Below are positions 9,747-33,560 of a DNA stretch of 35,748 bases, in pieces (the first letter of the stretch is position 1; each line of letters begins with the position of its first letter). This DNA comes from a virus. The stretch lies in IMG/VR virus record IMGVR_UViG_3300047357_001736, positions 1 through 35,748 of that record; one strand, written 5' to 3'. A program made the position numbers and the translations under genes. The notes beneath the pieces were generated by a model. That model had not been told where the DNA came from. It worked only from the letters and a program-made list of their open reading frames with translations, and did no database searches.

Positions 9747-9933
9747 TGTCTGTTAGATTCTCGACCGCAGATTTAATTAATTCAGCTTCTTCTTTTTTCA
9801 TCTTAACGAAGCCGCCAAAATCATCTTCGATCTTGATCATACCTTCCTCTACGGAAACACTAGGGCATTTAGCTTTTCCGCAGCACATGAATATTTTATT
9901 CCCTTCGGGTCTTAAGTAATAATTATTTTTCAT
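9733..9933 (-). CDS. Small Cys-motif protein, copy 1 of a tandem pair
   Basis: 66 aa. FMCCGKAKCPSVSVEEGMIK is followed by IEDDFGGFVKMKKEEAELI. It is related to 9540-9746 by the CC/CP cluster and the 'DD-x-G' turn. It is acidic at the C-terminus and has no membrane segment. It overlaps the upstream glycosyltransferase gene by 11 bases. Role unknown. Confidence 0.6.
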   Translation of the reverse strand: MKNNYYLRPEGNKIFMCCGKAKCPSVSVEEGMIKIEDDFGGFVKMKKEEAELIKSAVENLTDNEKG

Positions 9934-11014
9934 TGTTTATAATTTTTAATATTTGGTTTACAGTTTTTTGATAAGTAAAGTCTTTCTGTAGTTTTATTCC
10001 CTCCTTGTTTTGAGCCTTATTCTTTGCTTCGGCCTTTTTAAAACCTTGGATCATTTTCTCATCTGAGACTTGAAACATATTTCCTTGATTAAATAAAGAT
10101 CCTTCTTTAAAGAATAAATTATCATAGATGGGTGTTTTGCCGTCAGGTTCAATTAAGATTGCATTGTCTTTTGTTGCCCAATCTTTATGTGCAGTGCAGT
10201 CTAAGACGACACTCCACTTGCCTAACGCTGTAGCATTGAATGCTGGTATATTCCAACCTTCGGCTCCACTAAGTCCAGATAAATCAATGTCTATAGAATT
10301 AATTAAATCATTAACTTCTGAATTAGTTTTTAAATGTGGAAGAAAATTAATATTCGCATATGTTGCACCTTCTAGGGCCTGAAAAACAAGTTGATTCATT
10401 TGCTCTTGTTTTAAGAAGCCATTATTAATGCAGCAAGATAACTGATAATCGGTGTTATTACCATATGTCTTAGCCCAATTTCTTAAAATTTGAGCTGTAT
10501 TTTTTCTTCTTTCAAACTTTCCAATTAAACCAAAATGAATTTTGTCTTTAAAGTATTCATTCCCAGTTATGCAAAAGTCTTCATCGAAACCTAAACCAAC
10601 ACTATGGACATTACTGCAACCACTATCTTTAAAGATGTCCCTAGAGTATGAACTTTTAAAGATACAATTATCTTGAAGTTGTGCTATATTTTTTTCTATT
10701 GGAGTAGCTTGATCTGTTTCATGTGCAGTAAGTAAAGTTTGGTACCTAGAGATTCTGTTTTCTGAACTATTAAGGTGCCATTGGCTTAGTGTATGGTAGT
10801 CTCTATCGATAAGATGGAATCTGTTTTGGGACATAGATATAATCCAATTTTTAAAATCTTCTTCAATTTTATCGAAAGCTTCAAAGTTTAAATTTTCGCC
10901 AAAAGGAAAAAATGCTACAGTTAAGCCTTTTCTGTAAAGCTCTCTTAGAATGTTATAGCTAACATTCCCAAAGCTTAGCGAGTTAATTGCTCCTTTATAT
11001 ATTAAATTATCCAT
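9923..11014 (-). CDS. GT4-type glycosyltransferase
   Basis: 363 aa GT-B protein. The N-terminal half starts KGAINSLSFGNVSYNILREL, a typical family 4 N-terminal loop. HFGLIGKFERRKNTAQILRN marks the start of the nucleotide-sugar domain (the 'GR.e.rKn' motif), and LSGLSGAEGWNIPAFNATAL is the C-terminal donor-site motif with an E in the usual place. Close in type to family 4 enzymes that add hexoses. It lies 3 bases downstream of SSB, so it belongs to the leftward operon, an odd location for a sugar enzyme between SSB and small phage genes. Donor and acceptor unknown. Confidence 0.75.
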   Translation of the reverse strand: MDNLIYKGAINSLSFGNVSYNILRELYRKGLTVAFFPFGENLNFEAFDKIEEDFKNWIISMSQNRFHLIDRDYHTLSQWHLNSSENRISRYQTLLTAHETDQATPIEKNIAQLQDNCIFKSSYSRDIFKDSGCSNVHSVGLGFDEDFCITGNEYFKDKIHFGLIGKFERRKNTAQILRNWAKTYGNNTDYQLSCCINNGFLKQEQMNQLVFQALEGATYANINFLPHLKTNSEVNDLINSIDIDLSGLSGAEGWNIPAFNATALGKWSVVLDCTAHKDWATKDNAILIEPDGKTPIYDNLFFKEGSLFNQGNMFQVSDEKMIQGFKKAEAKNKAQNKEGIKLQKDFTYQKTVNQILKIINNEK

Positions 11015-13109: not shown

Positions 13110-13754
13110 ATGAAAAATATGAAAAACTTTGCAATAGGAATACCAACAATCAATCGAGCTGACCTACTCAATCAGGCCTTACATTCCTACTTTAAGATTT
13201 TTCCTAATACAGAAATTTTCATCATAGACAATGGCAACCAGGACATTAATGAAAGAGATGATTTGTTTGAAATACATAGACCTGATCGTAATTTAGGTGT
13301 ATCTGCTTCATGGAATTTACTTTGTGAAAAAATTTTCAAAGATCACAAATATGCATTGATCCTGAATGATGACATTCAACTCTCAAGTTCAGAATCTACA
13401 TTCAATAACTTCTGCAACTCGAATGATTTTGACTTAGCTCGATGCTATAAGCAATTTCATTTATGTTCTTTTGCGATAACTAAAAAATGTTTTATGTCTT
13501 ACAGATTTGATGAAACCTTTTACCCAGCATACTATGAAGATAGGGATATGCTTTATAGATTAAAGCTTGATCGTAAAAAAATCCTTGAACATTTTATGCT
13601 TAATCCGCAAATTTTTAGGAATAGTCAGACGATTTCTACAGATGGAGGTAATCCCGAATTAAACAAAAACTTTCAAAAACTAACACAATTATATATCGAA
13701 AAATGGGGCGGACCGCCAGACTACGAGAAGTACAAAACTCCTTTCAATAAATAA
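13110..13754 (+). CDS. GT2-like (GT-A) glycosyltransferase
   Basis: 214 aa. It starts FAIGIPTINRADLLNQAL, the usual GT-A opening, followed by IFIIDNGNQD, NLGVSASWNLLCEK and ALILNDDIQL, where NDD fills the metal-binding DxD position. A later PAYYEDRDMLYRL matches the 'ED.d...R' acceptor-side motif. Length is short for GT2, so it is a minimal catalytic domain. A Shine-Dalgarno-like AGGAAA lies 6 bases before the ATG at 13110, unlike most genes here; ATG 13119 is an alternative start. It is the first rightward gene, ahead of nrdA. Substrate unknown. Confidence 0.7.
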   Translation: MKNMKNFAIGIPTINRADLLNQALHSYFKIFPNTEIFIIDNGNQDINERDDLFEIHRPDRNLGVSASWNLLCEKIFKDHKYALILNDDIQLSSSESTFNNFCNSNDFDLARCYKQFHLCSFAITKKCFMSYRFDETFYPAYYEDRDMLYRLKLDRKKILEHFMLNPQIFRNSQTISTDGGNPELNKNFQKLTQLYIEKWGGPPDYEKYKTPFNK

Positions 13755-18562: not shown

Positions 18563-18579
18563 TGTAATTACTCTTTATC

Positions 18580-19633: not shown

Positions 19634-21580
19634 TTAAGCTTCTCGAATATAAAATGTTAGACTCGAACCGCTTTGCATTGTTGTCGGTTGATTAGTAAAA
19701 ACGCTAACATTTACTTCTGTACTACTGTTTCTCGAAACTGAAAGTAGAAACTCGTTATTGGCGGGCGTAAATGACCATGCTCCACAATCCACTTCTGGAC
19801 ATATTTCAAAGTCGCTCCAGCCACTAGGTATTTGCGATGAAATATCTATCGTACTGGACTGAGCTCCACTTAAGGTTACTTGAGTTTGAGCTGGCCTACT
19901 TGCAGATGGAGTAGGAGTAGGGGTAGGAGTAGGAGTAGCTGTCGATGTTACAGTTGGAGTAACAGATGGAGTTGGTAAAACTGCAGTAAACCCATTATAA
20001 GTTGGTGCATTATCGGCAAAACTACTATCATCATATATACCTACGGTATTGAAAAATGCTGAGTGCTCATTTCCATTTGCATCTTCTACATCTGATGGGT
20101 GTAAATTAATGTCCCAAGAGTCTACTAAATTTGTACAAGAAGGATTAGTGGATACACCATTAATTACATAAGGATTAGAACTTGAATCCCTTAAAACTGA
20201 ACTCGCATTTAAAGTGCCGTTGTTTGCATATAGAAACCAACCTCCATAGCATGTATCACCTCCTGAACTTGCCAATTGATACGCGAATGCAACAGTAAAT
20301 TTCTGACCACTAACGGTGGCAGAATATGTATCCTTACCATTAATTTGTCCTAAATTCGAATCTACAGTGAAAGTTGCTTCATCAACATCATATGTACCAT
20401 TGTCAAAAGATAATGCGAAATTAGCTCCAGTCGTAGATGCCGATACTGAAGGCGTCGGGGTTGGAGTTACTGCAGCCGAACTGCTTGGGGTTGGAGTTAC
20501 TGCAGCCGAACTGCTTGGAGTTGGCGTTGGTGATGGCAAAACAACAGTATCAGGAACTTTAGCCTGACTCATTTGCAGCGCTCCATCAAACATACTAACT
20601 TTACTACTTACATTATCTAGATCCCAAGAGCTAACATCTCTGCTAAAGCTATCATTATCCTTGAACATTCCGTCGGTTTTCTCAAGTACATTATCATTTT
20701 TAAACCATTTCCATATTGGTTTATTAAAGTTTGAGTCTTTAAACATATTGGAGGTATCTTTGACGGTAGATAAGTCCCAATCATTTAATCTTTTATTAAA
20801 ATTGGCACCCTCAAACATACCAGACATATCTTCGATGGCATATGTTTTGCCTTCTGACTCCATAAACCACTTCCACAACCCTACGGATATCACAGAATCT
20901 TTACAGGCCCCTGTTGCGATAGTTACCTTTTCCATATCCCAATTATTAATTGCCTTACATTTATCTAAGCTAGTACATTTGGATAATGTATACTGCAAAC
21001 TAGTTAGATTAGTGGGTTCAAATTTTCCAAAAAACTTTAACTTTCCGCAATTAAAAAAAGTTTTATCCATAAACATGGTTGCTGTACTAGCTGTAGATAG
21101 AGCTATGGATGTACCAGGATTTGCAGAAGTTAGAGGTAGAATGTCAGTGTCAAGCCTAAATAGTTTACCAAAATTCCTAAAATCACCCTGTCCATGAATA
21201 TAAAACTGAGTACCAACATTACACTCATATATTTTTTTTATGAGAAATCTATTTCCATATAAATCTAAATCTTGAGCGTCGCCATTAACATCCTGTTTTG
21301 TGGTTTGCATGAATGCAATTTTATTATCATATCCGCCAGTAATAGTAATCGTTTTAAAACTACCCCGATTAGTATATGTGTGAGTTAATAAATTACAGAT
21401 TACATTACCGCTGTCATCAGTAATCCTATTTGATCCAGAGAATGAGGTTATAGTCTCGGAGTCTGTTCCATCACCCCAATCTACGGTTAAACTTAAATCA
21501 TCATCATTGAAAAACGATGATGGACACAGGGGGATTTTTATCGTCTTACCCTTTTTTATGAAAGTGGTTTGTATTTTCAT
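19634..21580 (-). CDS. PKD/BspA-like (DUF285) virion adhesin with Pro/Thr linkers
   Basis: 648 aa. A PKD-like domain at about 10-75 (VDWGDGTDSETI ... HTYTNRGSFKTITITG) is followed by BspA-type DUF285 repeats at about 190-340 (NDWDLSTVKDTSNMF, SSWDLDNVSSKVSMF). These repeats are known from bacterial surface proteins and are scarce in phages. Linker 1 at about 350-378 and linker 2 at about 541-562 are TPTPS-rich, like the giant fibre protein. A 160-residue middle domain and an 85-residue C-terminal domain are unrecognised. No signal peptide, so it probably reaches the outside as part of the virion. It is a single gene between rightward units with its own terminator, and no sigma-70-type promoter is visible, which fits late expression. 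Confidence 0.75.
   Translation of the reverse strand: MKIQTTFIKKGKTIKIPLCPSSFFNDDDLSLTVDWGDGTDSETITSFSGSNRITDDSGNVICNLLTHTYTNRGSFKTITITGGYDNKIAFMQTTKQDVNGDAQDLDLYGNRFLIKKIYECNVGTQFYIHGQGDFRNFGKLFRLDTDILPLTSANPGTSIALSTASTATMFMDKTFFNCGKLKFFGKFEPTNLTSLQYTLSKCTSLDKCKAINNWDMEKVTIATGACKDSVISVGLWKWFMESEGKTYAIEDMSGMFEGANFNKRLNDWDLSTVKDTSNMFKDSNFNKPIWKWFKNDNVLEKTDGMFKDNDSFSRDVSSWDLDNVSSKVSMFDGALQMSQAKVPDTVVLPSPTPTPSSSAAVTPTPSSSAAVTPTPTPSVSASTTGANFALSFDNGTYDVDEATFTVDSNLGQINGKDTYSATVSGQKFTVAFAYQLASSGGDTCYGGWFLYANNGTLNASSVLRDSSSNPYVINGVSTNPSCTNLVDSWDINLHPSDVEDANGNEHSAFFNTVGIYDDSSFADNAPTYNGFTAVLPTPSVTPTVTSTATPTPTPTPTPSASRPAQTQVTLSGAQSSTIDISSQIPSGWSDFEICPEVDCGAWSFTPANNEFLLSVSRNSSTEVNVSVFTNQPTTMQSGSSLTFYIREA
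20461..20520 (-). repeat. 30-bp tandem duplication in the adhesin linker
   Basis: Two adjacent 30-bp units (20461-20490 and 20491-20520) differ at one base only. Each encodes a TPTPSSSAAV-type decapeptide, so linker length can change without shifting the frame. Confidence 0.9.
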
Positions 21581-22713: not shown

Positions 22714-22714
22714 C

Positions 22715-22743: not shown

Positions 22744-22749
22744 CTAACT

Positions 22750-23085: not shown

Positions 23086-24179
23086 GTAAAACATTAGATC
23101 AAATTACTAAATTCCTAGATAACAAGGAGAATCAAAAATACCACTTCAATCATTTTGAAGAAGAAGAGTACAAAATATCAAGTGGAAGCTTGAATTTAGA
23201 TTTAGCATTAGGTGGTGGGTTACCAGCTGGAGCACACAGGTTTACAGGGATTAATGAAGGGGGCAAAACAAGCTGTGCACTAACTGTTGCTAGAAACTTT
23301 CAAGAAAAGTTTGGTAAAACAGGTATGGTTGTCGTCGTAAAGTCTGAAGGTAGGCTAAGTAAAGAAATGCTACAAAGAACAGGAGTAGACCAAGATCCAG
23401 AAAAGTTCTTTATCCTTGATTGCAATATATTCGAAAAAGTTTTTGAGTTCATCAGAGATTTAGTTTTTAACAATGAAGATAAAAAGAAGTACATGTTCAT
23501 TATCGATAGCGTTGATGCTCTTTGTCGAATGAATGACATGGATAAACCTTTTAATGAGAGCGAGCAAGTTGCTGGAGGAGCACTAGTTACATCTGTATTT
23601 TTAAAAAAAATGGTATTACCTATCACAAAAATGGGCCATATGATGCTTTTAACATCACAGGTTCGTGTTGAAGTTGCGGCTAATCCTTACGCGGCCAGAG
23701 GTGGACCAAAGGTCAAGCAGGCTGGCGGTAATGCGATTAAACATTATGCTAACTTTATTTTAGAATTTGAAGAACGCTACAATAATGATATAATGTGGGA
23801 AAACCCTTCTGCATCAAAGATTGAAGACAAAGGTAATCCAATAGGACATTATTGTAAAATTAGATTTAGAAAAAGTATTAATGAAAAAACTGGAGCTCAA
23901 GTTCGCTACCCAATTAGATACGGTAGAACTGACGGTAATTCAATTTGGTTAGAAAAAGAAATCATTGACATGATGTACCTTTGGGGCTTCATCGAAAAGA
24001 AAGGAGCCTGGATATCATTTGATGAAGAAATTTTATCAGAGTTAAAGAAAGAAAACATTGAGTGCCCTGAAAAAATACAAGGCGACAATAAACTATTAGA
24101 GCTACTTGACTCAGATGGAAAAATAAAACAATTTTTTTATAATACAATAAATAACATATTTAGTAATGAAGAAAAATAA
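23082..24179 (+). CDS. RecA/UvsX-like recombinase
   Basis: 365 aa. Walker A is GINEGGKT (56-63) and Walker B YMFIIDSVDAL (Asp142); Glu89 in VVKSEGRLS fits the RecA catalytic Glu. TSQVRVEVAANPYAARGGPK matches the DNA-binding loop L1/L2 region. It forms the ssDNA filament for strand exchange and recombination-dependent replication, like T4 UvsX. The C-terminal ~70 residues are acidic/basic and phage-specific. Overlaps the upstream gene by ATGA and the next glycosyltransferase by 14 bases, so it is expressed together with glycan genes. Confidence 0.92.
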   Translation: MSKTLDQITKFLDNKENQKYHFNHFEEEEYKISSGSLNLDLALGGGLPAGAHRFTGINEGGKTSCALTVARNFQEKFGKTGMVVVVKSEGRLSKEMLQRTGVDQDPEKFFILDCNIFEKVFEFIRDLVFNNEDKKKYMFIIDSVDALCRMNDMDKPFNESEQVAGGALVTSVFLKKMVLPITKMGHMMLLTSQVRVEVAANPYAARGGPKVKQAGGNAIKHYANFILEFEERYNNDIMWENPSASKIEDKGNPIGHYCKIRFRKSINEKTGAQVRYPIRYGRTDGNSIWLEKEIIDMMYLWGFIEKKGAWISFDEEILSELKKENIECPEKIQGDNKLLELLDSDGKIKQFFYNTINNIFSNEEK

Positions 24180-25431
24180 AATATTTATATCGATAGCTAG
24201 TTACAGAGATCCAGAACTTATTCCAACCATTGAAAACTGCATAAAAAATGCAGACAATCCCGAGCATTTAGTTTTTGGAATATCCAGACAGTATCATCCT
24301 GACGACAAGTTTGATGATTTATCTAAATATAAAAAGAAAAAAAACTTCAGGGTCATAGAAACAGACTATAAAAAAAGTTTAGGGGTATGTAATGCTCGAC
24401 ATCATATTCAACAGCTTTTCAAGGATGAAGAATACTATTTGCAATTAGATTCCCATCATCGCTTCATTAAAGGCTGGGATACTAAAGTTAAAAAGACTTT
24501 AAATGATCTCAAAAAATCTGGCAGCAAAAAACCTTTACTGACAGCATACTTACCTTCATATGATCCCGAAGCTAAAGATGAAAATAGATTAAAAGATGTA
24601 TGGCGCATGTATATAGATAGGTTTATGCCAGAAGGCCCAGTTTTTATTTTTCCAGAATCAATTCAAGGTTGGTCGAAAAAAAACAGTAAGCCTGAAAAAT
24701 CCAGATTTACGAGTGGTCACTTCATTTTCACTTTAGGATCTTTTATTCAAGAAGTCCCTTATGACCCACAGCTTTACTTCCATGGAGAAGAAAGCTCACT
24801 AGCCGCTCGAGCATATACATGGGGTTACGACCTCTTCCATCTCCATAAACCTTGGTTTTGGCACCACTATACACGAGCAGGCAAGGCTAGACACTGGGAC
24901 GATGTCTCTAAGTGGGCCAAGCTAAACAAAGAAAGCTTTACTCGATATCGAAAATTATTCGGAATGGATGGATGCAGGAGACAGCACTTTAATAAATATG
25001 GCTTCGGTAAAGAGCGTAGTCTTGCAGACTATGAAATCTATTCAGGAATTTCTTTCAAAGATAGAAAAATCCAACAACACACGCTTGACAGAAAAGAGCC
25101 GCCAACTCCATTTAAATCCAAGAAAGATTATAAAAATAATTTTGTCTCTAAGTTTAAGTATTGTATAGATATACATAAACCTGCATTTACTGAAAATGAT
25201 TATGATGTTTGGGTCATAGCATTTAAAGATAAAAATGGAAAAGAAATGGTTAGGCTCGATGCAGATGAGCAAGAATTAAATAATTTATTAAAACAAAATC
25301 CAAAAGATGATTTTGTTAGATTATGGAGAGAGTTTGAAACTTCAGATCTTCCAAAGTCTTGGTTAATTTGGCCCCATTCAAAGTCTAAAGACTGGATGGA
25401 TATCATAGAAGGAGAAGTTCCAGCTCCTTGA
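24166..25431 (+). CDS. GT60-like (GlcNAc-type) glycosyltransferase, paralogue 1
   Basis: 421 aa. The first ~260 residues fit the 'Glycosyltransferase (GlcNAc)' family (PF11397-type, GT60): IFISIASYRDPELIPTIENC, FGISRQYH, the metal-site motif LQLDSHHRF followed by KGWD, SGHFIFTLG, and FHGEESSLAARAYTWGYD with HxPxFWHHY. Known members add alpha-GlcNAc to Thr or hydroxyproline of proteins, for example mucins of Trypanosoma cruzi. A C-terminal extension of ~150 residues starts YGFGKERSLADYEIY. Overlaps the recombinase by 14 bases. Its target could be the Thr-rich virion linkers; that is inference. Confidence 0.8.
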   Translation: MKKNKIFISIASYRDPELIPTIENCIKNADNPEHLVFGISRQYHPDDKFDDLSKYKKKKNFRVIETDYKKSLGVCNARHHIQQLFKDEEYYLQLDSHHRFIKGWDTKVKKTLNDLKKSGSKKPLLTAYLPSYDPEAKDENRLKDVWRMYIDRFMPEGPVFIFPESIQGWSKKNSKPEKSRFTSGHFIFTLGSFIQEVPYDPQLYFHGEESSLAARAYTWGYDLFHLHKPWFWHHYTRAGKARHWDDVSKWAKLNKESFTRYRKLFGMDGCRRQHFNKYGFGKERSLADYEIYSGISFKDRKIQQHTLDRKEPPTPFKSKKDYKNNFVSKFKYCIDIHKPAFTENDYDVWVIAFKDKNGKEMVRLDADEQELNNLLKQNPKDDFVRLWREFETSDLPKSWLIWPHSKSKDWMDIIEGEVPAP

Positions 25432-26693
25432 GAACAATTCTTGTCCATCTTCCAGCTTATAGAGAGCCAGAATTAATCCCTACAATTCAAAGCGCTCTTT
25501 CAAATGCTGCACATCCAGAAAGAATACACTTTGGTATTTGCAGGCAATTTTGCGAAGAAGATAGGTTTGATAACATTGATGAATATAGAAGCGATCCGCG
25601 TTTTAAAATTCATGACATGCCTTATACAGAGGCGAAAGGTCTAGCAACAGCTCGAGCGATCATCAACGACGAGTTACTAACAGATGAAGATTTTGTTTGT
25701 CAGCTAGACTCCCACCATCGATTTACAAAAGATTGGGACAATACTTTGATTGGATGGTATGATAATTTAAAAGATGAAGGCTATAACCCTATTATCGGAG
25801 GATACCTACCTTACTACAATCCATTTAATGACCCCGAAGATAGGGTGCAAGAACCTTGGTTTTCTGAAGCTGCATGTTTTTATCCTCATAACACTATCTT
25901 TATTCGCCCAACAGCAGTAAGAGAATGGAAAACTTTAACAAAGCCTTATCCAGCTAGATTTTTAAGCGGACATTTTGCATTCAGTTCTAATCAATGGGCC
26001 AGAGATGTCAAGCATGATAGAGATATATTTTTCGCTGGCGAAGAACTTAATTTAAGTGTTCGAAGTTTTACTCATGGTTATGATTTATTTCACCCACACG
26101 AAGTCGTTATTTGGCATGCAACAATGAGAGAAGAAAGAGCTGGAAAATTAGTGTGGGATGATCAAAGTAAACGCGGAGAAGATATGTGGTGGAAAGGAAA
26201 CGACTCTGCTAGGGCCAGAATCAGACAGCTTATAGGCGTAGAAGATAATGGTATTGATTTAGGTGAGTACGGTCTAGGTGATAAAAGATCATTAAGAGAT
26301 TACGAAAAATATGCGGGCATTCATTTTAAGAAAAAATCTTTTCAAAAATACACTAAAGACAATTATTTCCCCCCTAATCCCTATCCATATAAAAATGAAA
26401 AAGAATGGGAAGATAGTTTTATGTTCTCCTTTTATCATTTAGTAAATTTAGAACGGCATGAAATGCCTAAAGATGATTATGAATCCATACTCGTAGCGTT
26501 TGATGATGAAAATGGAGAAGGCATCTTCTCTACATCAATCGAAGGAGAAAGGCTAAACCAATTTATGAAAAATTCAAAACCAATACATTACGAAGAAATG
26601 TTTTTAACTGATAAAAAGCCAGCTCGCGTTGTTTACTGGGGTGCCAGCAAAAAACGCGGTTGGACAGAAAGAGTAGAAAGGCAAATACCATGA
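25428..26693 (+). CDS. GT60-like (GlcNAc-type) glycosyltransferase, paralogue 2
   Basis: 421 aa, the same length and domain order as the preceding gene: HLPAYREPELIPTIQSALSN, FGICRQFCEEDRF, CQLDSHHRFTKDWD, LSGHFAFSSNQW, FAGEELNLSVRSFTHGYDLF, and the C-terminal YGLGDKRSLRDYEKYAG extension. The two are tandem paralogues, diverged well beyond recent copying. The start is TTG at 25428, which overlaps the upstream TGA (TTGA), the same coupling device as ATGA. Possibly the two act in sequence or on different acceptors. Confidence 0.8.
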   Translation: MRTILVHLPAYREPELIPTIQSALSNAAHPERIHFGICRQFCEEDRFDNIDEYRSDPRFKIHDMPYTEAKGLATARAIINDELLTDEDFVCQLDSHHRFTKDWDNTLIGWYDNLKDEGYNPIIGGYLPYYNPFNDPEDRVQEPWFSEAACFYPHNTIFIRPTAVREWKTLTKPYPARFLSGHFAFSSNQWARDVKHDRDIFFAGEELNLSVRSFTHGYDLFHPHEVVIWHATMREERAGKLVWDDQSKRGEDMWWKGNDSARARIRQLIGVEDNGIDLGEYGLGDKRSLRDYEKYAGIHFKKKSFQKYTKDNYFPPNPYPYKNEKEWEDSFMFSFYHLVNLERHEMPKDDYESILVAFDDENGEGIFSTSIEGERLNQFMKNSKPIHYEEMFLTDKKPARVVYWGASKKRGWTERVERQIP

Positions 26694-27331
26694 GCGTGCA
26701 AGGTCACTTTACATATAAATCAAAACATGGACATCAAGTAACTGCCATGCAGGTACCTAAAGCACTCGATGTATTCCAATCATTATTTAACCAAGTTCCA
26801 TTCAGTAGAGTCATTGAAATTGGGTCGGCATTTGGCGGCACTACCTTAATGGTAATGGACGCATTAAATAATGCGGGGCAAAAAGACTGTGAGGTTTGGA
26901 CATTTGATACTAATCATAAATCGGCACCCCCAGCCATTCAATCTTATATCGATAAAGGGGAAAATGTAAAATTTTTCAATTATAATGTTTTTAACACAAA
27001 AGTTCATCCTTGGCAAATATTTGACAGGAATTCAGATCCCGTAAAATTCATACAATCTTCTGGTAGAACTCTTGTTTTATGTGATGGCGGCTGCAAACGT
27101 TTAGAGTTCCCTGTGCTTTCTGAATTCTTAAAGCCTGGAGATCACATTATGGCCCATGATTATGCCAAAGATGTAGACTATTTCAATTCTCATATTAAAG
27201 ATAAAATTTGGAATTGGCAGGAGATTAAATTTTCTGATGTAGAAAAACCTTTTGACACTTATAATCTAGAAACTTTTATGAATAATGATTTTAGTTCTGT
27301 TGCTTGGTTAAGTGCTCGCAAAAAATTCTAA
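26690..27331 (+). CDS. SAM-dependent class I methyltransferase-like protein
   Basis: 213 aa from ATG 26690, chosen because it overlaps the upstream TGA (ATGA) and reads MSVQGHFTYKSKHG; a longer frame from 26660 is unlikely. VIEIGSAFGGTTLMVMDAL is the SAM-binding motif I, VWTFDTNHK fits the acidic loop, and LVLCDGGCKRLEF with MAHDYAKDVDYF resemble the cephalosporin-hydroxylase/TylF-like and Methyltransf_24 group often found in phage and bacterial sugar-decoration loci. Probably O-methylates a sugar; substrate not known. Confidence 0.7.
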   Translation: MSVQGHFTYKSKHGHQVTAMQVPKALDVFQSLFNQVPFSRVIEIGSAFGGTTLMVMDALNNAGQKDCEVWTFDTNHKSAPPAIQSYIDKGENVKFFNYNVFNTKVHPWQIFDRNSDPVKFIQSSGRTLVLCDGGCKRLEFPVLSEFLKPGDHIMAHDYAKDVDYFNSHIKDKIWNWQEIKFSDVEKPFDTYNLETFMNNDFSSVAWLSARKKF

Positions 27332-28254
27332 TGTTATTTGCTGGAGACATTTCTGCAGGTCGCACAGAATGGTTTTGGCATTTCAATCAATTGTTTTTTG
27401 AGTTTTTAGAAAGCAAAAAGTTAAATCCAAAACACATACAGCCTAGTGGTAAAGATTCTTCTGGGTACGGAGTTAGAAATCTTTTTGGTTATGAAGTAAG
27501 CTTCAATTTAAACAATTTACTTATAGCTAATCCAAAAACAGAAAAGTGTATATTATTTACAACTTTCTTCGATCTAAGACAACTCAGGGGAGGTCTTAAA
27601 AACTTACCAATTAATAATATTGAAGCCGTCTACTCTGGACATTATGATGAAAAAATAATTAAGCGAGATTGGCCTGAAATTATACCTAAAATTAAACCTT
27701 GGTATTTTAGACCTTGGCGTACTAATTCTGCATATAAAGAAAATTGCTATAACCCTAAAAACGACAACATTTATTTCAGGGGCTTAATGATCCCTGGGGT
27801 CCGAAATCTCTTAGATCATTTATCTAAATCAAACATTAAAGGTATTAATATTCAAAGCTCTAAATCCAAAAATTACCATGAAGAGCTAACTTCCTCTAGA
27901 TTAGCTTTTTCCATGTCAGGCATTAGAGATATGTGTAACCGTGATATCGAATATTGGCTAACTGGCATGCCTTTTATTAGACCTAGATTTACATCTAAAT
28001 TATTAATTAATATACCAGACGACACATATATACCTATAGATTGGGAACCCAACTATAACGCCTTAACTCCAATCCCTAAAAATATTGAGTTACTATCTCA
28101 ACACATAATTGAAAAATATCAATCAGTCAGAAAAGATTATAATTACCTAAATAAAATTTCTCGAAATGGTTACAATTTTTATAAATCTAATTTCACAATG
28201 GATTTAATGATTAAAAATACATTTAATTTATTATTAAAATCAAATATTATATAA
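27331..28254 (+). CDS. Putative glycosyltransferase (GT-B-like)
   Basis: 307 aa from ATG 27331 (TAATG overlap with the upstream stop); a longer frame from 27304 would extend into the methyltransferase. A C-terminal block SSRLAFSMSGIRDMCNRDIE followed by YWLTGMPFIRP resembles the sugar-binding end of GT-B or exostosin-like enzymes ('s+l.ls..G....c.R..E.la.G..pi'). The N-terminal DISAGRTEWFWHFNQLF is not typical. Assignment rests on these segments and the surrounding glycan genes. Confidence 0.5.
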   Translation: MLFAGDISAGRTEWFWHFNQLFFEFLESKKLNPKHIQPSGKDSSGYGVRNLFGYEVSFNLNNLLIANPKTEKCILFTTFFDLRQLRGGLKNLPINNIEAVYSGHYDEKIIKRDWPEIIPKIKPWYFRPWRTNSAYKENCYNPKNDNIYFRGLMIPGVRNLLDHLSKSNIKGINIQSSKSKNYHEELTSSRLAFSMSGIRDMCNRDIEYWLTGMPFIRPRFTSKLLINIPDDTYIPIDWEPNYNALTPIPKNIELLSQHIIEKYQSVRKDYNYLNKISRNGYNFYKSNFTMDLMIKNTFNLLLKSNII

Positions 28255-28255
28255 T

Positions 28256-28400
28256 ATGAATTGCGTTATATCACTATATGATGAAGACTATTCCTGGACT
28301 AATTTACTGCCAAATTAAAAATGATTTCAGCAATTGCATTTTATACCAATCTAATATTAGTGAAGGTAAATCTTTAATATTGCAAAAAAGATCATTTTAA
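28256..28400 (+). pseudogene. Decayed or frameshifted small ORF between glycan genes
   Basis: ATG 28256 gives MNCVISLYDEDYSWTNLLPN and stops at 28316. Skipping one base restores a frame KNDFSNCILYQSNISEGKSL that runs to TAA 28398-28400. The combined ~47-residue product looks like the beginning of a GT-type protein of the 'S-x-Y-x-D-x-x-W' kind (DUF3431-like), cut off before its core. It may be a relic of gene loss in the cluster. The only other content of this 149-bp gap is AT-rich sequence. Confidence 0.35.
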
Positions 28401-28403
28401 ATT

Positions 28404-29369
28404 GTGATTTATTTTTTTTCAGATCCATATATTTATTCTTTTGAAAACCTATATCCACTTTATTTAAAATGTAAAGAAAGTAATATAGATTGTTTTTTTG
28501 ATACTGAATTCTCCCATCAAGGTTCAAATATATCAAAGACAGCTAAATTTCATAAAGGAAAGCGTAATTTAAGTAAAATTAGGAAGGGAGAGCTACCTCA
28601 ACCAAAATTAGTAATATTAAATCAGTGCTGGGGATTAACTGGCGGAAAAATATGTAAAGAGTTTTCCTCAAAAGGGATTCCAGTTATCACAACAGAGCAT
28701 GGGTCACCTATGCTTTACTATGGGGAAGGTTATTATAGAGGCAACTTAAGAGGATCTATTTCCCATCCAACCTGGGGTAAAGTAGGTTCGGAATTAATGA
28801 TTAAATTTGGCTGTAAACCAGAAACCGTACCAGCCCTAGGTAGTCCAAGAATAGATTATTATTTTGCTAGCAGAGAAATTAAATCAAAAAAAAACAACGA
28901 TGCTGTAATTTTTGGAACGAAAAAAGAAGGAATGAAGCCTTGGTCTAAAAGTATAGAAGAAAAAGTAAACATAATTTGCGAGAAACATAATAATGTAAAA
29001 TTTAAAGGAAAAGTTTTAGGTCCAATGAATGTGCAAAAACTTGAATCAATAGATAAGGATTTTTCTTCTGATGATTTTTATAACTTATTCAACAATATAG
29101 GTCATGCGTATTTCTGGTTTCCTTCTAGTTTGATAACCATCGCAAAAGTTATGGGGTGTAAAACATATGCATTATATTCTGATTCTAAATGCAAATATAC
29201 ATCTAAATATTTCAATGATCATAAAGATCATATTATTCCATATACATCAAGTAAACCAATTAATACTGAGTCTAATTCTACTTTTTTAGATGATAATTTA
29301 ACCAACAACGGCACTGAAAATATCTTAAATTATATATTAAATGAAAAAAGTTTCAATATTAATAACTAA
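28404..29369 (+). CDS. Putative GT-B glycosyl- or glycerophosphotransferase
   Basis: 321 aa, start GTG 28404. PVITTEHGSPMLYYGEGYYR matches the region of TagF/CDP-glycerol-type and related GT-B enzymes where a conserved His precedes the donor site. PALGSPRIDYYF fits the usual 'x-G-x-P-R-x-D' motif of that group, and GHAYFWFPSSLITIAKVMGC the end of the C-terminal Rossmann half. Probably transfers a sugar or polyol phosphate. Overlaps the next GT2 gene by 29 bases. Donor unknown. Confidence 0.5.
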   Translation: MIYFFSDPYIYSFENLYPLYLKCKESNIDCFFDTEFSHQGSNISKTAKFHKGKRNLSKIRKGELPQPKLVILNQCWGLTGGKICKEFSSKGIPVITTEHGSPMLYYGEGYYRGNLRGSISHPTWGKVGSELMIKFGCKPETVPALGSPRIDYYFASREIKSKKNNDAVIFGTKKEGMKPWSKSIEEKVNIICEKHNNVKFKGKVLGPMNVQKLESIDKDFSSDDFYNLFNNIGHAYFWFPSSLITIAKVMGCKTYALYSDSKCKYTSKYFNDHKDHIIPYTSSKPINTESNSTFLDDNLTNNGTENILNYILNEKSFNINN

Positions 29370-29943
29370 TTACAATTACGGTCGATATATCAATAGATGT
29401 ATCAGATCTTGCTTAAATCAAAACTTTAATCAAAACGAATATGAAATCATAATCATTGACGACAACAGTAATGACAATAGTTGCTCTCAATTAAACTACT
29501 GGAATAACAAAGAAAACATTAGGGTAATTTTTAACGAAGAAAATTTAGGCTTGGGTCATAGCTGCAACAGGGGTCTAGCTGAATGTAGGTCTCCATATGT
29601 CGTAAGGGTCGATGCAGATGACTACATTAATGAAAACTTTTTATTATTTTTATACAATTATGCACACTACAATAAATCCCAAGCTGTCGCATGTGATTAT
29701 ATTCAAGTAGATTTTAATGAAAATGTTATAGCTCGCAGCAATCCAAAAGAAAACCCTATAGCTTGCGGAATATTATTCAGGTTGGATTGTTTAGATTTTG
29801 TTGGAGGATATTCTAATCAAAGGGTTGGTGAGGAAGTTGAATTAAGAGGTAGGTTCGATAAACATTTTAATGTTGAATATTTAAACTTACCCCTTTATAG
29901 ATATATGAAACATGAAAAATCTTTAACCAGTATAAATAAATAA
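29341..29943 (+). CDS. GT2 glycosyltransferase
   Basis: 200 aa. Classic inverting GT-A family 2: VSILITNYNYGRYINRCIRS, IIIIDDNSND, ENLGLGHSCNRGL, and VVRVDADDYI with DADD as metal site; GGYSNQRVGEEVELRGRF fits the ED/GEE catalytic-base region. The short length means the catalytic domain only, with no membrane anchor. It is a normal sugar-adding enzyme for a glycan chain in this cluster; substrate unknown. Confidence 0.88.
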   Translation: MKKVSILITNYNYGRYINRCIRSCLNQNFNQNEYEIIIIDDNSNDNSCSQLNYWNNKENIRVIFNEENLGLGHSCNRGLAECRSPYVVRVDADDYINENFLLFLYNYAHYNKSQAVACDYIQVDFNENVIARSNPKENPIACGILFRLDCLDFVGGYSNQRVGEEVELRGRFDKHFNVEYLNLPLYRYMKHEKSLTSINK

Positions 29944-29953
29944 AATTTTAATT

Positions 29954-30598
29954 ATGGAATTAGAAAATATTTTTTTTAAAAAATGTAACACATCAAAAGA
30001 TGAGTATTTTAAATATTTAAATGATGCTGAGGAACTAACAGAAGATTTTAAGTATAGGCACTTCGATAATCACGCCAAGTCACTACTCGGCTGTTATCGC
30101 TGGAAGGGCGTTTATCAACATAGAGACTATTTAAAAAATATTCTTGAATCATCTAACTCCATAGATCTCGGAGGAGCTGCAAGTCCAATAGGCAATTCAA
30201 TAGTGGTGGATAATTTAAAATTTGACTATAATAATAATCCTGTAAAGTATAACACCATTGAAAGTGTTGACTTTGATGTGAATTTTATTTTTTCTTCACA
30301 CACTTTAGAGCATGTTTTTGATATTAAAGGAATACTCTTATCAATGTCTCGCAAACTAAATGAATCTGGTTCAATCTTCTTACATCTACCTGCTTATACA
30401 TGCAAAAGATGGCTTCCTGGAATTCACTCTCATTTAGATTTTGGAGATCATCAGTGGTCTTTTTCTTTATCTAGTGATAAAAACGCTCCTTCAACTGATA
30501 GAAATATTGTAATCGATAAACTTGTTAAAAACTACTTTAATAATATCAAGTCTTTTTATACTGGTGATAATTCAATAATTGTGATGGCTGACAAATGA
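29954..30598 (+). CDS. SAM methyltransferase-like protein
   Basis: 214 aa. NSIDLGGAASPIGNSIVVDN gives a degenerate SAM motif I. VNFIFSSHTLEHVFDIKGIL is the strongest block ('SSHTLEH' of class I methyltransferases), followed by LNESGSIFLHLPAY. HSHLDFGDHQWSF is typical of sugar-cluster methyltransferase-like proteins. It overlaps the NeuA-like gene by ATGA. It probably modifies a sugar or its carrier. Confidence 0.65.
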   Translation: MELENIFFKKCNTSKDEYFKYLNDAEELTEDFKYRHFDNHAKSLLGCYRWKGVYQHRDYLKNILESSNSIDLGGAASPIGNSIVVDNLKFDYNNNPVKYNTIESVDFDVNFIFSSHTLEHVFDIKGILLSMSRKLNESGSIFLHLPAYTCKRWLPGIHSHLDFGDHQWSFSLSSDKNAPSTDRNIVIDKLVKNYFNNIKSFYTGDNSIIVMADK

Positions 30599-31143
30599 GA
30601 ATACACACACTAATACCAGCGAGAGGTGGTTCCAAGCGGCTTAAATATAAAAATATTTATCCCTTAAAAGGCAAACCTTTAATTCTCTGGACAATAGATG
30701 CTGCCTTAGGATCAAAATATATTAATAAAAATAATCTTTATATATCTACTGAAGATCAAAAAATTAAAAATGTATGCTGTGATTTTCAAATCATTGATCG
30801 TCCACACGAACTGTCTGGAGATGATGTATGGACTCAGCCAGTAGTTGACCATTTTACACAATATATTAATGCTCAAGACGATGATATTATAGTTTTATTG
30901 CAGGCAAATTCTCCTCAAATTACAAGCCTAGTAATAGATCAATGTATAGATAAACTTATTAATAATAACTTATGGCAAGTGCATACTACTGGAGAAGATC
31001 TAATTCACAATGGAGCAGTTCATGTTTACAGAAATTTCGTAAGCTCTCACAAAGGTAAAATAAGTTATAATGGTTTTGTTGTAACAAATTGGCTTGATAT
31101 TCATACAAAAAACGATATAATAGAATTACTTAAAATATTATGA
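30595..31143 (+). CDS. Compact CMP-nonulosonate cytidylyltransferase (NeuA-like)
   Basis: 182 aa. LIPARGGSKRLKYKNIYPLK is the nucleotide-binding motif of CMP-sialic, CMP-legionaminic or CMP-pseudaminic acid synthetases; RPHELSGDDVWTQPVVDHF, IVLLQANSPQI and the terminal NWLDIHTKNDIIELL follow in family order. Family members are usually about 220-240 aa, so ~45 residues are missing from the middle and the enzyme is a compact form. It activates a nine-carbon acidic sugar with CTP. It is directly followed by the NeuB-like gene (ATGA), the usual pairing for this pathway. Confidence 0.82.
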   Translation: MRIHTLIPARGGSKRLKYKNIYPLKGKPLILWTIDAALGSKYINKNNLYISTEDQKIKNVCCDFQIIDRPHELSGDDVWTQPVVDHFTQYINAQDDDIIVLLQANSPQITSLVIDQCIDKLINNNLWQVHTTGEDLIHNGAVHVYRNFVSSHKGKISYNGFVVTNWLDIHTKNDIIELLKIL

Positions 31144-31871
31144 GTCTTACTATAGCTGCAGAACTAGGAATTAATCATAATGGTGACATGGATTTGTGTC
31201 ATGAGTTAATTAGACAAGCCTCCATTAACGGTGCGGACTTAGTCAAATTTCAATTATATGAACCTAAAATACTTTTTGCAGATGAACCACATTTAATAGC
31301 AGAAGGTCAAAGGTGTCAATTCGATTATGAAGAATTTAAAAGAGTTTTAGATTGGTGTCACGAAGAATCTATAGAACCATTTTTTAGCGTCTTTGATGAA
31401 ACCAGATTAGCTTGGACAGAAAAACATGATTGCAAAATTTACAAGATTGCATCTAGATCTGTTAAAAAAAACCCAGATTTTTGCAAAACTATCTGCGATT
31501 TAGGTAAACCAACTTATGTAGCACTGGGCATGGAGTCTCTAGAAAAAGCTAAATGTATAATGAGTGATTATAGTAATGTGAAATATTTGTTTTGCAAATC
31601 TCTATACCCATCTCAGTATAAAGACTATTCAGATCAACCTAAAGATTACCCTAGTTCTGAATACTACGGAATATCAGACCATACTCATGGCATTGAAATG
31701 TCTCTTTTAGCTATAGCAAGAGGGGCATCTTTTGTGGAAAAACATTTTACCCTGTCAAAATCAATGAATGGTTCAGACCACAAATGCAGTATTACCCCTT
31801 CAGAATTATTTAGTTTAAAACAGTATGGAACTTCACTATGTAAATGTTATAATATATGTAGTAAAAGATAA
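31140..31871 (+). CDS. NeuB-like nonulosonate synthase lacking the SAF domain
   Basis: 243 aa. Condenses an N-acetyl-hexosamine with PEP to make a sialic-type acid. The TIM-barrel blocks AAELGINHNGDMDLCHELI, ADLVKFQLYEP, KIYKIASRS, FCKSLYPSQYKDYS, YYGISDHTHGIEMS and FVEKHFTL with GSDHKCSITPSEL match NeuB. Family members are about 340 aa with a C-terminal antifreeze-like SAF domain; here the protein ends right after the barrel, so the domain is absent. The exact product (sialic, legionaminic or pseudaminic acid) cannot be told. No NeuC or other upstream enzyme is visible, so precursors may come from the host. Confidence 0.85.
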   Translation: MSLTIAAELGINHNGDMDLCHELIRQASINGADLVKFQLYEPKILFADEPHLIAEGQRCQFDYEEFKRVLDWCHEESIEPFFSVFDETRLAWTEKHDCKIYKIASRSVKKNPDFCKTICDLGKPTYVALGMESLEKAKCIMSDYSNVKYLFCKSLYPSQYKDYSDQPKDYPSSEYYGISDHTHGIEMSLLAIARGASFVEKHFTLSKSMNGSDHKCSITPSELFSLKQYGTSLCKCYNICSKR

Positions 31872-31874
31872 CAA

Positions 31875-33560
31875 ATGAACAACAATTTAACCATAGTTAG
31901 TGGCCTCTGGGACATTAATCGCGTCGGACGCGATTGGTCTAGATATGAAGAGCACTTTGATAAATTTCTAAAAATTCCATGCAATATGGTACTCTGGATT
32001 CCTAAGTCGCTGGAGTCATTTGTGTGGGAGCGCCGATCAAAGGAAAACACATTTGTTCGCATTTATGAATTAGAGGATATCAAAACTGGAATGTTTTCAC
32101 CTTTTTGGGACAAATGGCAATTAATTAGAACTAGCGAAAAGTGGCGAAATCAGGCGGGCTGGCTACCCGAAAGTCCTCAGTGTAAAAATGAATACTACAA
32201 TCCTATCGTCATGTCCAAAATGTTTTTCTTGCATGACTCAAAAGTATGGAATCCATTTGATACGGACTATTTTATATGGCTCGACGCAGGAATCAGTCAA
32301 ACAGTTTATGAAAATTATTTTTACGAGTCTACAAATCTAGACCGTATCACCAAAAATTTAGATCCGTTTTTATTCCTTTCTTACCCTTACGAAGCTGATA
32401 AGGAAATTCATGGCTTTGAATTTAATGCTATCAATAGATACGCTGGCTCCAAAGTTGATTATGTTTGTCGCGGTGGATTATTTGGTGGGCACAAAGATTT
32501 TATATCTCAAGCTAATGGAGAGTATTACCATCTTCTTGAAAGAACTATCAATGAAGGCTTAGCTGGTACAGAAGAAAGCATTTTTGCTATACTAGCAAAA
32601 CTGCACCCTGATAATTATCGACGCTACGAGCTGGACAGTAACGGTTTAATTGTAAAATTCATGCAAGCTATCAACGATGATACTGCCAATTTAGTTCCCG
32701 TTGATAAACCTAAAAATCAATTCAAACCAGTCGTTAATGATATATCTAGCATAAAAACTAATTTATATTTTTTAACATTCAATTTCCCTGAGCAACTCGA
32801 AGCGACGATTAAGTCTCTACAAAAACATGAAGGCTTCTTAACTCACCCTTTTCAAAAAATTGTTATTGACAACTCTACAAATCAAGAAGCTCGCGCGGGC
32901 AATAAATTGATTTGTGATAAATACGGATTTCATCATATAATAATGAATAAGAACACTGGAATCTGCGGAGGCAGGCAATTTGCTGCAGAGCATTTTCACT
33001 CCAGCGATTCTGATTTTTATTTATTCTTCGAAGATGATATGACAATATCAGACCCAGAGGAAGGATTATGCCGAAATGGATTCCAAAAACACATCCCAAA
33101 TCTTTATAAAAAAATCCATCAAATTATGTTGAAAGAAAGGTTTGACTTCCTTAAACTTTCTTTTACTGAGGTATATATGGACAACCAAGTGCAAGTTAGT
33201 TGGTATAATGTTCCTCAGGATGTCAGAACCTCAAACTGGCCAGACTACGACAAGCTGCCCACTACTGGACTTGATCCAAATTGCCCTAGAACAACATTTA
33301 AAAACATTAATTCACTTGGTGGGCTTCCTTATATCGACGGGGAAATTTATTATGCTAATTGGCCGCACATTGTTAGCAAGTCTGGCAATCAGAAAATGTT
33401 TATCAATACGAAGTGGGTACACCCTTATGAACAGACTTGGATGTCTCATATTTTTCAAGAAACTAAAAAAGGTGAAATTAAACCTGCGGTTTTGTTAGCT
33501 TCTACCGTCACTCACGATAGATTCAAACACTACAAACCTGAAGAAAGAATCGAAGGTTGA
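31875..33560 (+). CDS. Two-domain glycosyltransferase: HtrL/WlaTC-like plus GT2-like
   Basis: 561 aa. Residues 1-270 match the HtrL/WlaTC group: TIVSGLWDINRVGRDWSRYE, NMVLWIP, YFIWLDAGISQTVY (DAG in the metal-site place), VCRGGLFGGHKDFI and GTEESIFAILAKLHP. Residues about 290-555 form a GT-A domain: NLYFLTFNFPEQLEATIKSL, KIVIDNSTNQ, NKNTGICGGRQFAAEHF, LFFEDDMTI (EDDM as metal site) and a catalytic-side block with FINTKWVHPYEQTW. The fusion suggests two sequential sugar additions by one chain. It is the last glycan gene, 3 bases after the NeuB-like gene. Confidence 0.75.
   Translation: MNNNLTIVSGLWDINRVGRDWSRYEEHFDKFLKIPCNMVLWIPKSLESFVWERRSKENTFVRIYELEDIKTGMFSPFWDKWQLIRTSEKWRNQAGWLPESPQCKNEYYNPIVMSKMFFLHDSKVWNPFDTDYFIWLDAGISQTVYENYFYESTNLDRITKNLDPFLFLSYPYEADKEIHGFEFNAINRYAGSKVDYVCRGGLFGGHKDFISQANGEYYHLLERTINEGLAGTEESIFAILAKLHPDNYRRYELDSNGLIVKFMQAINDDTANLVPVDKPKNQFKPVVNDISSIKTNLYFLTFNFPEQLEATIKSLQKHEGFLTHPFQKIVIDNSTNQEARAGNKLICDKYGFHHIIMNKNTGICGGRQFAAEHFHSSDSDFYLFFEDDMTISDPEEGLCRNGFQKHIPNLYKKIHQIMLKERFDFLKLSFTEVYMDNQVQVSWYNVPQDVRTSNWPDYDKLPTTGLDPNCPRTTFKNINSLGGLPYIDGEIYYANWPHIVSKSGNQKMFINTKWVHPYEQTWMSHIFQETKKGEIKPAVLLASTVTHDRFKHYKPEERIEG

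Follow-up and report, generated by a model that had tools for sequence, protein, structure and literature searches.

A modular glycosylation island in a T4-like marine phage that probably provides its threonine-rich linkers with a mucin-like coat

We analysed a stretch of viral DNA of 35,748 nucleotides (IMG/VR record IMGVR_UViG_3300047357_001736), referred to as the window. The ten co-directional ORFs found at 24166-33560, directly behind uvsX, probably form a modular island for mucin-like glycosylation of the virion in a T4-like marine phage, which would O-glycosylate the linkers of its own surface proteins; this grading concerns the fibre-glycosylation reading as a whole.

A Pfam scan of the island ORFs identified a domain above the curated cut-off in six of them (Table 1). 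The two GT60-like enzymes, the GT2 and the NeuA-like and NeuB-like proteins of the original prediction are all confirmed in this way, the two PF11397 matches lying far above the cut-off. Both methyltransferases expected in the cluster gave matches that remain sub-threshold and, as for the proposed HtrL/WlaTC-GT2 fusion, the HtrL_YibB half is above the cut-off and the GT2 half below it. The description of two further products as GT-B-like was not borne out: the protein at 27304-28254 has zero Pfam or NCBIfam matches and a PHROGs match at chance level only (0.048), while that at 28404-29369 likewise matches neither Pfam nor NCBIfam and gives an unusable structure model (pLDDT 49.8). A scan for further relatives of the latter, which we regard as a candidate transferase, returned only two contigs already known (L015 and L016). 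Elsewhere in the window, where four more glycosyltransferase genes and a GT9-like half had been predicted, three of the genes were confirmed and the fourth and the GT9-like half were not found.

Table 1. Features of the island, additional glycosyltransferase genes and linker proteins in the window.
Feature	Position	Strand	Evidence and remarks
GT60a	24166..25431	+	PF11397 9.9e-63, 213.1 bits (cut-off 21); first island gene
GT60b	25428..26693	+	PF11397 5.6e-47, 161.3 bits (cut-off 21); 35% identity to GT60a
Methyltransferase, TylF/CmcI-like	26660..27331	+	Pfam 2.8e-4, sub-threshold
Protein without family assignment	27304..28254	+	85% conserved in L009
Protein without family assignment, member of the NeuA/NeuB cassette	28404..29369	+	accompanies NeuA/NeuB in L015 and L016
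GT2 glycosyltransferase, short (200 aa)	29341..29943	+	Pfam 1e-27; without hydrophobic segment
Methyltransferase	29954..30598	+	Pfam 6.9e-5, sub-threshold
NeuA-like CMP-sugar synthetase, 182 aa	30595..31143	+	CTP_transf_3 8.6e-22, 78.5 bits (cut-off 22.6)
NeuB-like synthase, 243 aa, barrel only	31140..31871	+	PF03102 3.5e-38, 131.9 bits (cut-off 22.1)
HtrL/YibB::GT2 fusion	31875..33560	+	HtrL_YibB 8.1e-11; GT2 half 0.0035, sub-threshold; last island gene
Glycosyltransferase gene	5998..7917		phrog_2170
Glycosyltransferase gene	9923..11014		phrog_2170
Glycosyltransferase gene	13110..13754		PF00535
Linker protein, proposed acceptor	2..4072	+	open at window edge; linkers at residues 310-434, 557-648, 744-1231
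Longest linker of the preceding protein	2231..3694	+	488 aa: 191 Thr, 81 Ser, 82 Pro
Second linker protein, proposed acceptor	19634..21580	-	DUF285 3.1e-19; linkers at residues 334-394, 518-585

The cluster is conserved and not a product of chance: in 9 of 11 related contigs uvsX is immediately followed by GT60a, and the genes that come next also recur. A second GT60 of the GT60b type and the HtrL::GT2 fusion, which is part of the conserved core, are each present in 8/8 related contigs reaching that far, and an endonuclease gene and dnaB come after the island in those relatives whose contig extends there. Comparison of two near-identical phages shows that they have the island edges in common, but not the interior (25.4-33.0 kb), which is exchanged between neighbouring phages.

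GT60 genes are widespread among viral contigs, and the DxH metal-site motif (D95-S96-H97 in GT60a) is invariant in 34 of 34 aligned sequences. DxH in place of DxD is described as a feature of GT27 and GT60 enzymes (PMC7185993), and the Trypanosoma cruzi GT60 enzyme TcOGNT1 is reported to form GlcNAc-alpha-O-Thr in mucins (PMC9472816). The predicted structure of GT60a is confident (pLDDT 94.2) and corresponds to a GT-A fold near the polypeptide transferases. In the VIA-align comparison with solved structures, polypeptide GalNAc-transferases take the first 29 places (Z 18.9-22.4 with an identity of only 11-15% across the aligned part; Z 17.0 for the entry that follows), headed by ppGalNAc-T2 (6e7i; Z 22.4, rmsd 3.6, 279 aligned). 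The first 17 rows obtained with Foldseek are polypeptide GalNAc-transferases as well. A PDB sequence search with GT60a gave nothing (best E 0.9), and other phage and giant-virus GlcNAc-type transferases were matched in BFVD. In the whole-protein profile scan against Pfam, GT60a is recognised by PF11397, not by GT27, and without a lectin domain. We propose that GT60a is an initiating polypeptide (Thr) HexNAc-transferase.

The long Thr/Ser/Pro linkers attributed to two virion-type proteins of the window are real, and their residue ranges could be mapped; the virion role of the two proteins (ORFs 2-4072 and 19634-21580) is presumptive. phrog_15511 matches the window protein as well as other linker proteins; since the best-matching stretch falls within the repeats, it was not taken as domain homology. 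In the window linkers Thr/Ser occur at every second residue, and the 92-94% of Thr/Ser found in one phase is partly a product of how this measure is built. A measure of alternation coverage did not discriminate, as half coverage was reached in 281/500 cases when the window linkers were shuffled without restriction, and was therefore replaced by a shuffle with prolines fixed, which gave 101 adjacent Thr/Ser pairs against 200 expected (z -14.5). The same alternation is also seen outside the GT60-positive set, namely in G011 and L016, which are without GT60 (4 pairs, 41 expected), and in the proline-rich ORFs of bacterial loci (311 pairs, 484 expected). GT60-positive linkers are distinguished by the residue that separates the Thr/Ser positions, which is proline in 36-38% of cases versus 74% in G011 and L016.

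The co-occurrence of PT-repeat genes with GT60-like genes, suggested as a check in the original prediction, was found across viral records. A Thr/Ser/Pro-rich ORF on the same strand lies directly upstream of GT60 in 58 of 79 viral loci (of 80; L067, of the window's lineage and a duplicate of G008, was left out). At position -1 such ORFs make up 58/69 of the same-strand ORFs, compared with 79/1101 of the other ORFs and 0/66 at position +1; after dereplication the upstream linkage is weaker (14/23 at 80%, 6/12 at 70% and 3/7 at 60% identity). The upstream genes belong to unrelated clusters (c15, c23, c9, c55 and c33, plus 22 unclustered genes), and therefore the property that they share is the repeat, not the gene. 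At the level of whole records, the TPTxTxTP motif is present in 49/57 GT60-positive and 3/34 GT60-negative records (Fisher p 1.2e-13, kinship ignored), two sets that differ also in lineage and habitat and are thus confounded. One whole-record scan covered 50 of 80 records (contigs of at least 30 kb, L145 and L146 left out) and the NeuB-anchored records were 14 (L015, L016 and L031 left out); the 34 GT60-negative records are mostly fragments, including two of 13.7-23.8 kb and two of 21.1-26.5 kb. Since GT60 lies directly behind genes of Thr-rich proteins in many phages, those phages probably sugar-coat their own fibres.

Some records depart from this pattern. In a clade anchored on DNA polymerase, a neutral anchor, no association between GT60 and linkers was detected within 10 kb (linkers in 20/23 GT60-positive and 11/13 GT60-negative loci); a whole-record search showed that 10 of the 13 loci taken as negative do have GT60 in another part of the record (10/21 of all records searched), the remaining 3 records being 24-46 kb long. 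Linkers are present and GT60 was not found in G011 (45 kb). In the window's own lineage GT60a is preceded by uvsX instead of a linker gene, and the neighbour of GT60 in XacN1 and in RAS14 does not encode a linker protein. A literature search joining GT60 glycosyltransferases with phages gave no match, and one on threonine-rich proteins, O-glycosylation and tail fiber gave, judged by titles, none on phage fibres.

Alternatively, GT60 could modify a protein but not the linkers, namely a capsid, tail or host protein, with the island merely tending to insert behind linker genes. Other phage glycosyltransferases act on capsid proteins, as described for mycobacteriophages in the excerpted text (PMC11256854). 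Of 74 bacterial loci with a recovered GT60 ORF, 24 have this ORF immediately after a fimbrial-type gene, many with T6SS genes nearby, and GT60 is present without such linkers in G003 (59 kb) and G047 (114 kb); nevertheless, we hold this alternative to be improbable, given that unrelated upstream genes have only the repeat in common. Hardly more likely is that the island remodels host LPS, capsule or another surface glycan, for instance to prevent superinfection or to mimic a pathway of the host. Loci for surface polysaccharides often contain NeuA/NeuB, GT2, GT4 and methyltransferases, cyanophages are known to carry LPS-type gene clusters, and the nearest PHROGs of the GT2 are GtrB-like O-antigen conversion (6.5e-18). 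However, GtrB-type enzymes are membrane-anchored, and a hydrophobic 19-mer occurs in 0/10 island proteins, at variance with a Gtr-type system of anchored GtrB and flippase GtrA. Moreover, no flippase-, polymerase- or ligase-like protein with at least 6 segments was seen in G005 and G008 (by crude hydropathy, on records of uncertain completeness), and both the modelled GT60 fold and the linkage to linker genes point to polypeptide acceptors. The host-glycan alternative of the original prediction has therefore lost ground. Modification of phage DNA bases is very improbable: T4-like relatives do glycosylate their bases and the HtrL fusion has a chance-level PHROGs match (0.056) to beta-glucosyl-HMC-alpha-glucosyltransferase, but GT60 is related to polypeptide transferases and no pyrimidine hydroxymethylase-type gene appeared in scans covering most window ORFs.

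A separate matter is the nonulosonic-acid (NulO) cap. The NeuB-like protein scores 142.4 bits with TIGR03569 (equivalog cut-off 399.65) over positions 3-248 of 329, lacking the C-terminal part and keeping the metal- and catalytic-region motifs; for the NeuA-like protein, the nearest NCBIfam equivalog is PseF (72.5 bits, cut-off 205.7). Neither precursor enzymes (epimerase/aminotransferase) nor a recognised NulO transferase were found among the window ORFs scanned, and the cassette recurs at comparable identity in only two further contigs, L015 and L016. On these grounds the cap is not supported, in contrast to fibre O-glycosylation, which has strong but indirect backing from the GT60a fold, the upstream linkage, the motif co-occurrence and the XacN1 glycoproteins (see below). 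It is conceivable, if rather doubtful, that NeuA and NeuB act on another keto-acid sugar, or are decaying. Their short length, the scores far below equivalog level, the missing NeuB C-terminal part and the NeuA-like end, which reads LDIH where known enzymes presumably have DID, all agree with this. Decay is disfavoured by the kept motifs and by the similarity of the three copies of the cassette (75-87% identity), and shortness is common: among the 16 viral NeuB-like ORFs that no contig end truncates, 14 have 301 aa or fewer, and the chain of the best solved relative (6ncs) has 290 residues. NeuA and NeuB belong to a mobile cassette; possibly the host supplies the precursor and the 28404-29369 product is the unrecognised transferase.

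According to the favoured reading, mucin-like coating of phage fibres, GT60a and GT60b would move HexNAc from a host UDP-sugar, the presumed donor, onto the threonines, and onto part of the serines, in the linkers, which are the putative acceptors; this would take place in the cytoplasm of the host as the phage assembles. The methyltransferases, GT2, the two unassigned proteins and HtrL::GT2 would presumably act afterwards, extending and decorating the sugars in a way that varies from phage to phage, with a nonulosonic acid, made from host-supplied precursor, possibly added by NeuB and NeuA. The product, supposedly located on the virion, would be a mucin-like stalk, stiffened, protease-shielded and easily re-coded. 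The evidence is evenly balanced on a wider proposal, in which tailed phages in general modify their virions by mucin-type O-glycosylation. A portable operon would then encode a Thr-x-Thr-x stalk protein, GT60 as initiator, extenders that can be exchanged and HtrL::GT2 as finisher, and would produce fibre stalks coated with sugar. A large fraction of the uncultured phages would carry it and re-code it by interior swaps between near-identical phages, and its initiator would also serve the contractile machines of bacteria (T6SS loci), next to proteins of the fimbrial type. Few systems of phage virion glycosylation have been documented, and the initiation of mucin-type chains (GT27/GT60) has been described mainly in eukaryotes. 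Should our reading be correct, hundreds of uncultured phages encode a mucin-like stalk together with its coating enzymes, which would explain why phage proteins contain Thr-Pro repeats, so far a puzzle, and would also offer a source of simple soluble O-glycosylation enzymes and raise the question whether phages change sugar coats to evade receptors, proteases or predators.

Among known systems, GT60a resembles the GT60 polypeptide alpha-GlcNAc-transferases, such as TcOGNT1 and Dictyostelium Gnt1, a family whose acceptor residues are Thr or hydroxyproline; with TcOGNT1 it shares PF11397, DxH, the polypeptide-transferase fold (in the model) and a Thr-rich proposed acceptor. Unlike TcOGNT1-type enzymes, it is a soluble, cytoplasmic protein encoded by a phage; it has an additional region at the C-terminus, and its acceptor and donor are putative. 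The GT27 polypeptide GalNAc-transferases, which start mucin-type chains, provide the closest solved folds, but differ in sequence and Pfam family, as described above; of their C-terminal ricin-type lectin domain, the Pfam scan of GT60a gave no match. Streptococcal serine-rich-repeat adhesin islands have the same acceptor-initiator-extender layout, the acceptor gene coming first, then a conserved enzyme for initiation and variable extenders, with GtfA/GtfB (GT4-type) and an accessory Sec system; the acceptors are cell-wall adhesins there and phage proteins here. Virion glycosylation in Che8/Corndog-type mycobacteriophages, reportedly the subject of work by Freeman and colleagues in 2023, involves, to our knowledge, other enzymes and lacks a Thr-x-Thr linker stalk. 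In these phages the transferases that act on virion proteins, mainly capsid proteins in the excerpted text, are encoded by the phage itself (PMC11256854). Finally, three GT60-bearing isolates were found, among them Xanthomonas phage XacN1, and glycan on virion proteins is reported, in the text available, for XacN1 only (PMC5852040). By annotation XacN1 has no HtrL/NeuA/NeuB island beside its GT60 gene (ORF334, 39.6% identity to GT60a), unlike the window, and the excerpted report names neither acceptor linkers nor the GT60 family (PMC5852040). Its genome contains 59 linker-motif matches (reversed control 0), several of them in ORFs beside tail sheath and head genes, and the authors' proteomics revealed at least two virion glycoproteins, for which the phage's own transferases were suggested (PMC5852040).

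By its gene content, the 35,748-base IMG/VR fragment comes from a T4-like phage. Its backbone genes encode ribonucleotide reductase, a UvsX-like recombinase (at most about 27% identical to those of isolate phages), a gp32-type SSB, a sigma factor, Hsp20 and, at the end, a DnaB-type helicase; a tRNA-Ser gene is also present (see table). The island consists of ten co-directional ORFs, mostly overlapping or tightly packed. From the enzyme set of the original prediction, the two GT60 enzymes, the GT2, the NeuA-like and NeuB-like proteins and HtrL_YibB have assignments that lie, in whole or in part, above Pfam's own cut-off. The two methyltransferases score below it, as does the GT2 part of the HtrL fusion, and two island proteins gave no match in the Pfam and NCBIfam scans and stay without assignment.

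Positions of the features discussed in the window and in related records
Feature	Record	Positions	Strand	Remark
Island	window	24166-33560		ten ORFs
GT60a	window	24166-25431	+	PF11397
GT60b	window	25428-26693	+	PF11397
Protein found with NeuA/NeuB	window	28404-29369
HtrL::GT2 fusion	window	31875-33560	+	last island gene
Linker protein	window	2-4072	+	proposed acceptor
DUF285 linker protein	window	19634-21580	-	proposed acceptor
DUF285 linker protein	L002	5886-7415
tRNA-Ser (GGA)	window	17463-17552	-	flanked by two plus-strand genes
Match to L004	window	11939-18837		97.3% identity
Match to L004	window	20512-25421		94.7% identity
No match to L004	window	25421-32958
Match to L004	window	beyond 32958		84.0% identity
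Membrane protein, 330-331 aa	G005	near 80751
Membrane protein, 330-331 aa	G008	near 46629
Membrane protein, 330-331 aa	G007	near 20360
Membrane protein, 330-331 aa	G003	near 42796
Thr-Pro protein, 1008 aa	L014	3-3029		G011 42257-45283
Bacterial GT60 locus	L225	2900-12200
Bacterial GT60 locus	L193	6854-9377

The predicted model of GT60a has a mean pLDDT of 94.2 and a pTM of 0.90. Its 29 best VIA-align entries are all polypeptide GalNAc-transferases, with Z from 18.9 to 22.4 (the top row aligns 279 residues at rmsd 3.6 and 12% identity), the first entry outside this group having a Z of 17.0; in Foldseek the same enzymes occupy ranks 1-17, and rank 18 is TarS, a teichoic-acid GlcNAc-transferase. 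The DxH motif, given for both GT27 and GT60 in the accessible part of one source (PMC7185993), is invariant in 34/34 aligned sequences. According to the available text of another, the GT60 enzyme TcOGNT1 forms GlcNAc-alpha-O-Thr in T. cruzi mucins, which are later sialylated (PMC9472816). The shared fold favours a polypeptide acceptor for GT60a, although fold alone is no proof of function. The same predicted fold occurs in giant-virus proteins named GlcNAc transferases (Pandoravirus salinus and Megaviridae samples; BFVD).

A profile scan of viral DNA gave at least 599 matching stretches, 594 of them with a GT60 relative; 80 loci were kept, the window's lineage contributing few. Among 79 of these (L067 left out), 69 have an ORF at position -1 to GT60 on the same strand, and 58 of these ORFs are Thr/Ser/Pro-rich, as compared to 79 of 1101 other ORFs in the same loci; the corresponding counts are 23/62 at position -2 and 0/66 at +1. 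After dereplication the -1 linkage stands at 31/40 (90% identity), 14/23 (80%), 6/12 (70%) and 3/7 (60%). Since the upstream linker genes span several sequence clusters, it is the repeat, not the gene, that recurs. Of the 80 loci, 71 have a member of one cluster that includes HtrL_YibB proteins (membership by BLAST overlap, so that some members may match by a single domain), and the representative of this cluster also carries an FkbM methyltransferase domain; the GT60 and HtrL core is therefore not peculiar to the window.

Co-occurrence of Thr-Pro repeats with GT60, part of a check proposed originally, is seen across records. The DNA pattern for the linker motif TPTxTxTP is present in 43 of 50 GT60-positive records (the reversed control pattern in 5, once each), in 4/5 records from the same lineage as the window, and in the isolate phages XacN1 (59 matches) and RAS14 (23), that is, in 49/57 GT60-positive records. 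The GT60-negative total is 3/34: 2/18 UvsX-anchored records, 0/14 NeuB-anchored records, and G011 with the motif but G010 without it (Fisher p 1.2e-13, uncorrected for kinship or habitat). Within the UvsX-anchored subset the motif occurs in 4/5 GT60-positive vs 3/20 GT60-negative records (p 0.012). G003 and G047 are exceptions, having GT60 and no linkers of this type, while G055 lacks the motif yet has several Thr-rich segments.

The three linkers of the window's plus-strand linker protein together comprise 705 residues, of which 271 are Thr and 95 are Ser. When prolines are kept fixed in shuffling, adjacent Thr/Ser pairs number 101 vs 200 expected, and i,i+2 pairs 337 vs 204. The residue between alternating Thr/Ser is proline in only 36% of cases, and therefore the constant element is a hydroxyl at every second position. 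Such alternation is also present without GT60; linkers that occur with GT60 are set apart by the diversity of the in-between residues.

Relatives of the window's UvsX were found in 11 loci on 11 contigs, and GT60a immediately follows uvsX in nine. The other two, L013 and L014, have no GT60a there, and PF11397 was not found in their records. Where the contig reaches, the order is uvsX, GT60a, second GT60, variable genes, HtrL::GT2, endonuclease, small ORF, dnaB. Because the match to L004, a close relative, stops at 25421 and resumes past 32958, GT60a has been retained and the stretch from GT60b to mid-HtrL::GT2 exchanged; the island interior is changing fast. The DUF285 linker protein diverges strongly from its L002 counterpart (74% over 427/648 residues), in phages otherwise 95-97% identical near this gene, so that the proposed acceptor varies along with the island. 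A conserved protein with four hydrophobic segments is the only such membrane protein seen among the lineage records. In the GT60-negative L014, the 1008-aa Thr-Pro protein lies directly upstream of the uvsX neighbourhood and, read by eye, has an apparent intein/Hedgehog-like segment past its linker.

NeuA, NeuB, the unassigned protein at 28404-29369 and GT2 co-occur in L015 and L016 at sites different from that in the window; the L015 site has the dUTPase neighbourhood on one side and nrdA on the other. The NeuA/NeuB DNA is 86% identical between the window and L015, more alike than the backbone genes (67-82%), which fits a recent cassette exchange. Both proteins are short and under the NCBIfam equivalog cut-offs; the NeuB-like protein (243 residues) leaves the C-terminal quarter of TIGR03569 unmatched. 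In known NeuB, this C-terminal domain aids substrate binding. Of 16 NeuB-like viral ORFs uncut by a contig end, 14 have at most 301 aa, short forms thus being usual in viral records, and a nonulosonic-acid cap is therefore plausible, if unproven.

In bacterial loci (L176-L225), a fimbrial-type gene lies directly upstream of GT60 in 24/74 cases, in Enterobacterales and Burkholderia relatives. T6SS genes also occur in such neighbourhoods (TssF, PF05947, 2.7e-210 in L223), and L225 has OmpA- and DcrB-type genes downstream of GT60. We know of no GT60 serving a contractile secretion machine.

Our best reading is that enzymes of the island O-glycosylate stalk proteins of the phage itself, in the cytoplasm and in a lipid-independent way, every functional step of which we infer. 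GT60 would start the sugar chain on a stalk protein, and the variable island enzymes would lengthen it. Remodelling of the host LPS is kept as a rival; against it, a crude hydropathy count finds no hydrophobic segments in the island proteins and no membrane protein of large size in the lineage's two longest records, which may be incomplete. We likewise retain as rivals that GT60 acts on another protein acceptor, or that the glycosyltransferases modify DNA.

GT60a relatives at E 1e-5 occur in 3 of 50,697 isolate phage records, XacN1 among them. In the accessible part of their paper, the XacN1 authors report at least two glycoproteins by proteomics and suggest that the phage's ORF328 and ORF334, both transferases, may be responsible (PMC5852040). 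The second of the two is the relative of GT60a. XacN1 linker motifs lie in ORF369, 370 and 372, adjoining the tail sheath and sheath stabiliser genes, and in ORF350, which is flanked by the head completion gene and a structural protein gene. A search of the open-licence literature gave no paper that links GT60 with phage. As far as the available texts tell, phage-encoded virion glycosylation is already known from mycobacteriophages (PMC11256854) and XacN1 (PMC5852040); what would be novel here is an initiator of the mucin type, a stalk with alternating Thr, and an island whose interior can be swapped.
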